A DNA stretch of 64,000 nt from an uncultured bacterium (GTDB lineage: Bacteria > Verrucomicrobiota > Lentisphaeria > Victivallales > UBA1829), in assembly GCA_902762495.1 (NCBI GenBank), contig CACWOL010000012.1, positions 1 through 64,000 of the forward strand, given 5' to 3'. The notes beneath the pieces are model-generated. The model worked only from the letters and a program-made list of their open reading frames with translations, did not search any database and had not been told where the DNA came from. Below are positions 1 through 3,178 of the stretch, one piece after another. A program made the position numbers and the translations under genes. Every line of letters starts with the position of its first letter. Within the stretch, counting starts at the first letter, position 1.

Positions 1-1
1 C

Positions 2-382
2 CTCAAGCTCAAGGAGATCAGCTACCTGCACGCCGAGGCGTACCCTGCCGGCGAGATGAAGCATGGCCCCATCGCCCTGCTCGAGCCCGGCTTCCCCGTG
101 GTCGCCATCGTTCCCGAGGACCGCGTGCACGACAAGACCGTCTCCAACATCCAGGAGGTCATCGCGCGTGGTGCCACCTGCGTGGCCGTGGCCACCGATG
201 GCGACGAGTCCGTGGCGTCGCTCTGCGAGCACGTGCTGTGGATCCCGCCCGTCGAGGACGAGCTCCTCGTGCCCATCGTTGCCGTTGTGCACCTGCAGGT
301 GCTCGCCCGCTACGTCGCCCGCTCGCGTGGGTGCGACGTGGACAAGCCCAGGAACCTCGCCAAGTCCGTCACGGTGGAGTAG
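2..382 (+). CDS. glmS: GlmS C-terminal fragment (glutamine--fructose-6-phosphate aminotransferase), foreign to rest of window
   Basis: About 126 residues of the second SIS (isomerase) domain of glucosamine-6-phosphate synthase, cut by the window start. Visible family motifs are [13 protein letters not shown], the KHGPIALLE loop and the invariant C-terminal tail [11 protein letters not shown]. The enzyme makes glucosamine-6-phosphate from fructose-6-phosphate and glutamine in the cytoplasm. A complete, different glmS lies at 41096-42922, and the two C-termini differ at many positions outside the conserved loops. This copy is followed after 3 bases by an acpS start. I recall that glmS-acpS adjacency from Coriobacteriia-type actinobacteria, and GTG-rich codon use here fits that. 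I infer this stretch comes from another organism and was joined by misassembly (see 490-520). Confidence 0.9.
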
Positions 383-385
383 CGC

Positions 386-1723
386 ATGGCCCTGGCTGGC
401 ATCGGCGTCGACATGCTCGAGATCGCGCGCATGGAGCGCACCATGCGCCGTAGGCCGTCGTTCCTCCGCCGCGTGTTCACGGAGGAGGAACGCGCCTACT
501 GCGACCTGCTCATGAGCGGACTGAAAGGCGTCTGCGCCTTCGCGTTTCATGCGCTCGCCCTCGGCTACGAGGACAACGCCATCTACAACTTCATCATCAA
601 GGTGCTGTCCGCCACGGCCAAGCCCGACACCCCGCACGAACGCCTCGCCCTGCTGATCGTCGAATGCGGACGCATCGCCTCCATCGCCATGGCGCTGCTG
701 GATGAAGCCAACACCGAGACCTACGGTTCCCCCGCCATCTGCCATGTTTCCTGGAAAGCCGGACAGAATCCCGGCATCCTGATGTCCGGCCAGGATATGA
801 AGGACCTCGAAGAACTCCTGATCCAGACCGAGCACGCCGACATCGACGTCTACACGCACGGCGACATGCTTCCCGCCAACACCTATCCCGGATTCCGCAA
901 ATTCCCGCATCTGAAGGGCAACTACGGCGGCTCCTGGTGGACTCAGGCGCAGGATTTCGCCTCGTTCAACGGCCCGGTCATCGTCAACTCGAACTGCATC
1001 ACCCCGGTGCAGGACGCCTACCGCGGACGCATCTTCACCACCGGCATGGTCGGCTGCAAGGGCACGCCGCACATCACGCACCGCCACATCGGCATGCAGA
1101 AGGATTTCTCCGAGGTCATCCGCCTCGCCAAGACGCTCCCCGCCCCCACGCCGCTCGACACCGATTCCGTCGTGCTCACCGGCGGCTTCGGACACCATCA
1201 GGTCTGCTCCGTGATCTCCCAGATCGCGCACTACATCGAAAACGGCACCATCCGCCGCTTCATCGTGATCGCGGGCGAAGACGGACGCGACGAACGCCGC
1301 GAATATTACACCGAGCTGGCGAAAGCGCTCCCGCCTGATACCGTCATCCTGACCGCGGGTGGCGTCAAGTACCGTTTCCTGAACCTCGACCTCGGCAAGA
1401 TCACCGGCATCCCGCGCGTCATGGACATCGGCCAGATCAGCGACGCCTACTCCATCATCCGCATTGCGCTCGAGCTCCAGAACGCCCTCGGCATCCGCAC
1501 GCTCGACAAGCTCCCCGTCTCCTTCGTCCTCTCCTGGTACGAACAGAAGACGATCGCGGTCTTCCTGGCGCTGCTCACGCTTGGATTCAAGAACATCCGC
1601 CTCGGACCGACGTTCCCCGCGTTCTTCTCGCCCGGCATCATCGACGTCCTGACGAACGACTACGGCGTGAAATCCGTCACCACCGCCGAGGCCGACGCCG
1701 CGGATATGATGGCGGGCAACTGA
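386..1723 (+). CDS. Chimeric ORF: AcpS N-terminus (residues 1-40) fused to a headless Hcp/prismane-like protein lacking hybrid-cluster ligands
   Basis: Residues 1-40 are the start of holo-ACP synthase (GIGVDMLEIARME, then FTEEERAYCD). From residue 41 (LLMSGLKGV) to the end the protein aligns throughout with hybrid cluster protein (Hcp, hydroxylamine reductase/NO-stress enzyme family), missing roughly the first 150 Hcp residues with the N-terminal FeS cysteines. The Hcp part is well preserved (MALLDEANTETYG, GNYGGSWW, GIPRVMDIGQ, WYEQK, IRLGPTFPAFFSP). Compared from memory with Desulfovibrio Hcp, the hybrid-cluster ligands His244, Glu268, Cys405, Cys433 and Cys458 correspond to Q136, D160, E298, G326 and I351; only C204 and the WYEQK Glu/Lys remain. 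So even the complete protein would probably not hold a normal 4Fe-2S-2O cluster. The head-tail fusion itself is probably an assembly artefact. Confidence 0.85.
   Translation: MALAGIGVDMLEIARMERTMRRRPSFLRRVFTEEERAYCDLLMSGLKGVCAFAFHALALGYEDNAIYNFIIKVLSATAKPDTPHERLALLIVECGRIASIAMALLDEANTETYGSPAICHVSWKAGQNPGILMSGQDMKDLEELLIQTEHADIDVYTHGDMLPANTYPGFRKFPHLKGNYGGSWWTQAQDFASFNGPVIVNSNCITPVQDAYRGRIFTTGMVGCKGTPHITHRHIGMQKDFSEVIRLAKTLPAPTPLDTDSVVLTGGFGHHQVCSVISQIAHYIENGTIRRFIVIAGEDGRDERREYYTELAKALPPDTVILTAGGVKYRFLNLDLGKITGIPRVMDIGQISDAYSIIRIALELQNALGIRTLDKLPVSFVLSWYEQKTIAVFLALLTLGFKNIRLGPTFPAFFSPGIIDVLTNDYGVKSVTTAEADAADMMAGN
490..520. other. Probable misassembly junction between two genomes
   Basis: Left of about base 505 both genes (glmS end, acpS start) look actinobacterial; right of it all genes are of one PVC-type genome. 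The join falls inside two unrelated protein families that never occur as such a fusion: AcpS stops after 40 of ~125 residues and Hcp begins ~150 residues in. A Cys-Asp-Leu-Leu coding stretch at the join could give short shared sequence for an assembler to bridge. The exact base cannot be fixed from sequence alone. Confidence 0.8.
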
Positions 1724-1740
1724 GCTGTGCCCTGTTCGTC

Positions 1741-1770
1741 CGCTCCGGTTCGGGTCGTCCCGCCGGAGCG
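1741..1770. terminator. Strong GC hairpin after the Hcp-like gene, possible terminator
   Basis: CGCTCCGG (1741-1748) pairs with CCGGAGCG (1763-1770), and inside it CGGG (1751-1754) pairs with CCCG (1759-1762) across a 4-base loop; only a TT bulge breaks a 12-bp stem. It starts 17 bases after the stop codon. There is no clean T-run, so termination may be weak or factor-assisted. Confidence 0.45.
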
Positions 1771-1817
1771 GCCTTCCGCTATTCTTCGCATCAACTGAAC
1801 CCATCCGGCCAAAGAGT

Positions 1818-2351
1818 ATGACGTTCTTCCGGTTCACGATCAGTTTTTTCCTCGCGGTTCTCGCCGCCTGCCTCACGGTTTCCTGCCGTTCCCCGCAGCA
1901 AATTCTGCTGACGAACTCGGATTCCGGCAAGACGCTTGATCTGTGCGTCGGCGACACGATCGTGGTGGCGTTGAGTTCGTACGGCAAGGCCGGATACGAC
2001 TGGTATCCCAGGCACGGCGCGGGCAGCGTTCGGATCCTCGCCGAAAAGGGCGAACGCTACGAATCCGATCCCGACCCGGACGGCACGCGCCGGTTCCGGC
2101 CCGTCGAGGGACGGGAAGGCACGCACTATTTCGCCTACCGGGTCATCGGTCCCGGGGTCTGCGGCATCGCGATGGAGTACAAACGCAGCTGGGAAAAGAC
2201 GGACCCGGAGAAGTCTTTCGAGGTCATGATCCGGGCGGCCGGCACGCCGGAGGAAGCCGCCTCCGATCCGGCCGAACAGCCTCCGGACGAGGAGCCCGTC
2301 TACATGACGGACTCCAAGGGCAACGTGACCGTCCGTCCCAGTCTGCCGTAA
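1818..2351 (+). CDS. Lipoprotein with chagasin-like (MEROPS I42) cysteine-protease-inhibitor fold
   Basis: 177 residues. Residues 1-23 are a lipoprotein signal peptide with lipobox LTVSC (Cys23 lipidated). The mature part follows the chagasin/PMI plan: a VGDTIVVAL strand (residues 44-52), a GYDW motif (59-62) matching the TGYxW loop, an extended strand with FAYRV, and YKRSWEKTDPEKSFEVMI matching the RPW loop and last strand. Family members block papain-type proteases by inserting three loops in the active site; here a periplasmic or surface role is inferred from the lipobox. The acidic, proline-rich tail (~140-177) is unlike the domain and probably disordered. The gene lies 14 bases upstream of waaP and probably starts that operon. 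The target protease is unknown. Confidence 0.75.
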   Translation: MTFFRFTISFFLAVLAACLTVSCRSPQQILLTNSDSGKTLDLCVGDTIVVALSSYGKAGYDWYPRHGAGSVRILAEKGERYESDPDPDGTRRFRPVEGREGTHYFAYRVIGPGVCGIAMEYKRSWEKTDPEKSFEVMIRAAGTPEEAASDPAEQPPDEEPVYMTDSKGNVTVRPSLP

Positions 2352-2365
2352 GATTCGAGGCCGCC

Positions 2366-3178
2366 GTGGAAAAGCTCTACTTCAACGATACGTTTCAGAA
2401 AGCATGGGGCAAGGATCCCTTCGCCAGCGCGTTCGCCGTGACCGGGGAAGTCTTCCGCGACGTCAAGAACCGCAGGACCATGCGGTTCCGCATGGACGGC
2501 AAGTCCTATTTCATCAAGCTCCACGGCCCGGTCGGCTGGCGCGAAATATGGAAAAACCTGCTCCAGTTCAAGCTCCCCGTGATCGGGTCCGCCAACGAAT
2601 ACCTCGCGATCTCCCTGCTGAACAAGCTCGGCGTGCCGACCATGACCGCCTGCGCGTTCGGCATTCGCGGCGTCAATCCCGCCGCCATGGAATCGTTTCT
2701 GGTGACCGAGGACCTCGTCGGCATGGTCTCGCTGGAGGATTTCTGCCGCGACTGGAAGACGAACCCGCCGCCGCCCGAGCTCAAAAACCGCATCATCCGC
2801 GCCCTGGCCGTGACCATTGCCCGGATGCACGGCAGCGGCCTGAACCACCGCGACTGCTACATCTGCCATTTCCTGCTGGATCCCGCCTCGCTTCAGGAGA
2901 AACACATCAAGCTGCACGTGATCGACCTCCACCGGGCTCAGCTGCGTTCGCGCATCCGCCGCCGCTACCGCGTCAAGGACCTGGCCGGGATCTTCTTCTC
3001 CGCCATGGACCTCGGGCTCTCCCGGCGTGACGCCCTCCGTTTTATCGCCGCGTACACGCCCCGCGCGGGCGCTCTGGACGCGAAGATGTGGCCGGACGTC
3101 CTCCGGACCGCGGTCCGGCTTTACCGCAAGGAATTCGGCCGCGAACCCGGTCTCCCGCCCGATTGTTCCCGAACCTGA
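2366..3178 (+). CDS. waaP: Lipopolysaccharide core heptose(I) kinase WaaP (RfaP)
   Basis: 270 residues, close to the usual ~265. Start chosen at GTG 2366, with GAGG at 2357-2360. The open frame runs further upstream, but WaaP homology begins here (KLYFNDTFQKAWGKDPF). Strong family match over the whole length: GEVFRDVKNRRTMRF, GKSYFIKLH, KLPVIGSANEY, LVTEDL, the kinase catalytic motif LNHRDCYICHF with His161-Arg-Asp163, and VIDLHRAQLR. Asp163 corresponds to the Asp162 I recall as essential in E. coli WaaP. The enzyme adds phosphate to the first heptose of the LPS inner core, on the cytoplasmic side of the inner membrane, which stabilises the outer membrane through divalent-cation bridges. A WaaG homologue (34380) is far away, so the core genes are split in this genome. 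Confidence 0.95.
   Translation: MEKLYFNDTFQKAWGKDPFASAFAVTGEVFRDVKNRRTMRFRMDGKSYFIKLHGPVGWREIWKNLLQFKLPVIGSANEYLAISLLNKLGVPTMTACAFGIRGVNPAAMESFLVTEDLVGMVSLEDFCRDWKTNPPPPELKNRIIRALAVTIARMHGSGLNHRDCYICHFLLDPASLQEKHIKLHVIDLHRAQLRSRIRRRYRVKDLAGIFFSAMDLGLSRRDALRFIAAYTPRAGALDAKMWPDVLRTAVRLYRKEFGREPGLPPDCSRT

Follow-up and report, generated by a model that had tools for sequence, protein, structure and literature searches.

Hybrid cluster proteins (Hcps) of all the classes described carry seven conserved cluster ligands (PMC10502027), and the question raised by the present locus is what an Hcp that has lost most of them could be retained for. The sequence in question, hereafter the window, is a stretch of 64,000 nucleotides from an uncultured member of the Victivallales, and its base 1 is also base 1 of contig C12. 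A preliminary description of this DNA had proposed that the gene at 506-1723 encodes an Hcp paralogue in which five cluster ligands are replaced while the scaffold is conserved, suggesting a new function as opposed to decay.

Ligand positions in the window Hcp

Ligands are numbered throughout according to D. vulgaris Hcp (1e2u), which itself keeps all seven. Alignment of the window Hcp with residues 150-552 of this protein required nearly no gaps over 404 residues, and revealed that ligand positions H244, E268, C312, C406, C434, C459 and E494 read Q, D, C, E, G, I and E, respectively, five of the seven having been replaced and only C312 and E494 surviving (Table 1). The high-scoring, almost gapless character of the alignment bears out the five replacements proposed initially, together with the retention of the NSNC and WYEQK motifs. 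The identities of the residues therefore stand, although the numbers first assigned to three of them (405, 433 and 458) each fall one below the 1e2u positions (406, 434 and 459). No cysteine was found elsewhere at a ligand position, indicating that the substitutions do not arise from misplacement of the cysteines. The term paralogue is a loose one, since the window's genome has this Hcp only; five of the 13 genomes of the genus encode a second, canonical Hcp.

Table 1. Features of the hcp locus and of the adjoining contig end (residue numbers as in 1e2u)
Feature	Position	Strand	Evidence or remarks
Foreign contig-end fragment, glmS tail (2-382) and acpS start (from 386)	1..484	+	NCBIfam glmS and acpS matches; outside the real locus
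Probable mis-join, word GAGGAACGCGCCTACTGCGAC	485..505	+	Word shared by hcp genes of nearest sister species with <=1-2 mismatches
Ligand-depleted Hcp, C-terminal 405 codons	506..1723	+	Prismane PF03063, E=3.5e-105; phmmer to 1e2u, E=9.5e-137; sister proteins ~520 aa
Gln for ligand His244	791..793	+	Alignment to 1e2u
Asp for ligand Glu268	863..865	+	Alignment to 1e2u
Cys312, ligand kept	995..997	+	Alignment to 1e2u
New Cys at position 334 (canonical Hcps: Tyr/Trp/Phe)	1055..1057	+	
New Cys at position 382 (canonical Hcps: Leu/Phe/Met)	1205..1207	+	
Glu for persulfide ligand Cys406	1277..1279	+	Alignment to 1e2u
Gly for ligand Cys434	1361..1363	+	Alignment to 1e2u
Ile for ligand Cys459	1436..1438	+	Alignment to 1e2u
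Glu494 (ligand kept), Gln495 and Lys496 of WYEQK	1541..1549	+	Alignment to 1e2u
Chagasin-like I42 inhibitor, lipoprotein-like N-terminus	1818..2351	+	PF09394, E=7.1e-11; adjoins hcp in 13/13 genus genomes
Kdo/WaaP-type kinase, GTG start	2366..3178	+	G006 orthologue PF06293, E=8e-46; 3' of hcp and I42 in 13/13 genus genomes

Chimeric sequence at the contig end

The open reading frame at 386-1723 is composed of two unrelated families, its first 40 codons (386-505) corresponding to the start of a holo-ACP synthase and the remainder to Hcp. DNA homology with the eleven sister loci invariably sets in at window base 484/485, and at the place of the join these loci read GAGGAGCGCGCCTACTGCGAC or similar. 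In sister species hcp is preceded by glnS. The window's genome has the end of glnS at one contig end, that of C43, and this contig breaks off shortly before the site of the hcp promoter. The same genome has a complete acpS of its own on C13 (C13:58569) and its own glmS tail (C12:42545), and a search for the source of the glmS-acpS fragment returned only matches of less than 60% identity. The simplest reading of the chimera, and the probable one, is an assembly mis-join via GAGGAACGCGCCTACTGCGAC at the contig end. The window is without the real Hcp N-terminus because the first 40 codons of the frame derive from the mis-assembled contig end, and ~115 codons of the true N-terminus are absent from the assembly. 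The alternative of a true AcpS-Hcp fusion was discarded in view of the point of homology onset, the separate acpS gene, the location of glnS at the end of C43 and the synteny of the sister loci; the apparent fusion frame is an artefact of the chimera.

Full-length proteins, predicted fold and family membership

The N-terminus missing from the window was examined in full-length sister proteins, which have ~520 residues. The class I C-x2-C-x8-C-x5-C motif for the [4Fe-4S] cluster is intact in all 12 sister species, and its spacing places the sisters among the class I Hcps, the window lacking this part through the mis-join. The 4-residue insertion that marks the motif in class II Hcps is absent from the sisters, and there is no hcr gene adjacent to hcp, where the neighbours are glnS and the genes for the I42 inhibitor and the Kdo/WaaP-type kinase. 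One full-length sister, L032, scored 399.6 bits against PF03063 (cut-off 27), 561 bits against TIGR01703 (cut-off 360.8) and 602 bits against NF003658 (cut-off 367). The same protein matched no Ni,Fe-CODH model, and identity to CODHs by fold was 13-18%.

Structure prediction with near-identical orthologues only gave a pLDDT of 51 at first, and one of 76 when two distant Hcps from viral-contig records were added. The resulting AlphaFold2 model of a sister protein (pLDDT 75.7, pTM 0.79) has a TM-score of 0.85 to 1e1d/1e2u, which supports the original suggestion that the Hcp fold is kept. By sequence and predicted fold, then, the protein belongs to the Prismane/Hcp family, yet judged from its active site, in which five of the seven hybrid-cluster ligands of a functional Hcp are replaced, it is very probably not a functional Hcp. 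The frames at L032:7650-9218, L042 and window 506-1723 all score above the NCBIfam equivalog cut-offs for hydroxylamine reductase. Automatic annotation of the ligand-depleted proteins as such is likely to be wrong.

Stepwise loss of ligands within the genus

The named records of the genus are metagenome-assembled genomes of rumen Lentisphaeria/Victivallales, and an hcp gene of the altered lineage is present in all 13 genomes of the genus. Exactly the residues Q, D, C, E, G, I and E are found in 11 species, i.e. in the window and in ten further species, represented by independent rumen assemblies (goat, yak, sheep and others), indicating that the window gene is not a one-off. Two further species differ: the ligand set of G008 is Q, E, C, S, C, S and E, three ligands having been lost, and that of G006 is H, E, C, C, C, C and E, with all seven kept. 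In the tree the eleven are monophyletic (support 100/99), with G008 and then G006 as successive sisters and all of them on one long stem, and the hcp loci of G006 and G008 are syntenic with those of the eleven. Since G006 and G008 are successive sisters that share the downstream genes, the tree and the ligand sets place the loss inside the genus; it followed the divergence of G006 and took two steps or more. The new cysteines at positions 334 and 382 occur without exception in G008 and in the eleven depleted species, but neither in G006 nor in any of the 33 other Hcps compared, a distribution which indicates that their gain and the first ligand losses fall on one and the same branch.

The rarity of such changes was apparent when 155 distinct Hcp frames, mostly from the class and phylum, were surveyed: all seven ligands were present in 141. 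The 14 exceptions comprise 12 frames of this clade, one fragment too short to score and a distant outlier, L104 (G190:C113:7400-9200). The latter is a divergent Hcp-like frame of 495 residues with the ligand set Q, E, C, C, C, C and A; H244Q and E494A (WNAER) are accompanied by four intact cluster cysteines, representing a second, unrelated departure. Additionally, a separate and well-supported Hcp branch within the class (L056, L058, L059 and L060) has LTLACGK in place of LTAGCAK and an N-terminal CYQCEQ, with its ligands intact.

Selective constraint on the altered gene

Pairwise Nei-Gojobori estimates for the eleven species gave a median dN/dS of 0.11 (maximum 0.21; pairwise dS up to 0.42), indicative of strong purifying selection and equal to the values for close canonical Hcp pairs of the same genus (0.11-0.12). 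Estimates against G008 were higher, at ~0.2-0.25, as an acceleration of change around the time of ligand loss would lead one to expect. All 12 complete loci share a conserved sigma-70-like promoter (TTGACA-N17-TAAAAT) and an AAGGAG ribosome binding site, and the frame is intact in every one of them. The dN/dS ratio, the conserved promoter and the presence of the gene throughout the genus tell against decay, in keeping with the initial proposal; the altered Hcp is a more constant feature of these genomes than the canonical one.

None of the five replaced positions varies within the clade, but 80% of all columns are likewise invariant, and invariance at these five thus says little as to whether they bind anything. 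Substitutions clustered near the ligands (p=0.02) when the test took in the ligand positions themselves and every change from the canonical state onwards. Non-ligand changes at near-invariant columns after the G006 split showed no concentration near the ligands (p=0.73); on this account no remodelled second shell is proposed, and the changes lend no support to a purposely rebuilt pocket.

Neighbouring genes

The altered Hcp, the I42 inhibitor and the Kdo/WaaP-type kinase form a genus-specific trio (window 506-3178 and 12 sister genomes); in G006 only a few bases separate hcp from the I42 gene (L048:7739-7747). No genes for the inhibitor and kinase were found at the other Hcp loci that were examined, and the constancy of these neighbours points to no clear function for the altered Hcp. 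NrfA was not found in the genomes of the genus; little self-made NO would be expected, and its absence is in keeping with a modest demand for defence against NO.

Possible functions of the ligand-depleted Hcp

In all likelihood the hybrid cluster has been lost and a function retained. Going by known structures, the [4Fe-2S-3O] cluster could not be held in its known form because three of its four cysteines and the histidine are gone, so that its assembly is very probably not possible and the protein very probably not an NO or hydroxylamine reductase. Its job, to judge from such losses in a gene that is kept intact almost throughout the genus, very probably differs from that given by the hydroxylamine reductase annotation. 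The preliminary description had put forward binding, regulation or another metal, any of which may be the new function. Taken as a whole, it seems rather probable that the protein is a genus-specific derivative of class I Hcp that lost the hybrid cluster and was retained in a different role, by a mechanism along the following lines.

The N-terminal [4Fe-4S] cluster would remain the entry point for electrons, and the former cluster pocket, in which Cys434 and Cys459 are now Gly and Ile, would accommodate at most a small oxygen-ligated metal site made up of Asp268, Glu406 and Glu494, plus Gln244 and Cys312. In the Hcp structure, the His244/Glu268 pair binds a neighbouring iron. In oxidised M. 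thermolithotrophicus Hcp, the residues corresponding to Glu494 and Cys406 ligate Fe8 itself (PMC10210160). Glu406 and Glu494 would therefore provide two carboxylates at the former Fe8 position, and Asp268 and Gln244 are located where the His244/Glu268 pair used to be; for these reasons a small oxygen-ligated site is tentatively regarded as the likeliest mechanism. A broader proposal, that the scaffold has been rebuilt in this one genus around a different metal centre to give a new enzyme, using either Asp268/Glu406/Glu494 or a shifted Cys334/Cys382 site, is conceivable but more doubtful.

A metal-free redox or binding protein ranks close behind the oxygen-ligated site, although it too is somewhat unlikely. 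In such a pseudoenzyme the old site would be empty, and the [4Fe-4S] cluster and scaffold would serve in binding, electron transfer or redox/nitrosative sensing. Of the four sulfur ligands three are gone, as is the histidine; Ile is present at 456 and 459 and Phe at 501, and the N-terminal cluster motif is invariant across complete copies. All of this is compatible with the pseudoenzyme explanation, whereas a pure scaffold would need neither a carboxylate exactly at position 406, beside the kept Glu494, nor the retention of Cys312, Glu494 and Lys/Arg496. Alternatively, a shifted cluster or metal site could be formed by Cys312 and the new Cys334 and Cys382. This is improbable: the two new cysteines were gained with the first ligand losses and have stayed invariant in G008 and the eleven, but spatial closeness of the three cysteines is unsupported and the two gains may be coincidence.

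It could also be argued that the gene is decaying in a lineage that no longer needs Hcp, with its frame as yet unbroken, as the stepwise loss of ligands, the lack of NrfA and the patchy occurrence of canonical Hcp might suggest; this is strongly disfavoured by a dN/dS of 0.11 sustained over the pairwise dS range, by the intact frame, promoter and ribosome site of every complete locus and by presence in 13 of 13 genomes. Finally, wrong base calls or misalignment at the ligand positions, which the real assembly error just upstream might bring to mind, are refuted by the quality of the alignment and by the recurrence of these residues in ten further genomes that were assembled independently, the error being confined to bases 1 to ~505.

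Comparison with known systems

The closest known relatives are the class I Hcps (D. vulgaris 1e2u, D. desulfuricans 1gn9 and M. thermolithotrophicus 8cnr), to which the full-length sisters show ~44% identity and a similar predicted fold (TM 0.85). The C-x2-C-x8-C-x5-C motif, Cys312 and WYEQK with Glu494 and Lys496 are held in common; H244Q, E268D, C406E, C434G and C459I set the altered Hcp apart. The canonical Hcps of the same genus (L043-L047, from the five genomes referred to above) belong to the same family, but their ligands are all intact and they lie on separate branches of the tree and at other loci.

No report of a ligand-lacking Hcp or Hcp pseudoenzyme was found in the open literature, most subscription journals lying outside its coverage. 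A recent survey counted the presence of key clusters among its criteria for refining its set of CODHs, and handled Hcp in a similar way (PMC13056359), and ligand-depleted members could have been dropped as a consequence. The present clade suggests that the Hcp scaffold can stay under selection without the hybrid cluster, and it preserves the intermediate steps of loss, from seven to four to two ancestral ligands, in living species. The hydroxylamine reductase models, which the altered Hcp passes, would mislead conclusions drawn on nitrogen stress among rumen bacteria.

A precedent exists in a sister family, the Ni,Fe-CODHs, in which structural groups A-4 and A-6 have incomplete active-site signatures (PMC6344411). 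In these groups, and in CODH-V of C. hydrogenoformans, ligands have been lost or changed while the scaffold is kept (PMC6344411, PMC10502027). The parallel has its bounds, in that the CODHs are a different, dimeric family with ~16% identity by fold, and CODH-V keeps an Fe-S-O cluster.
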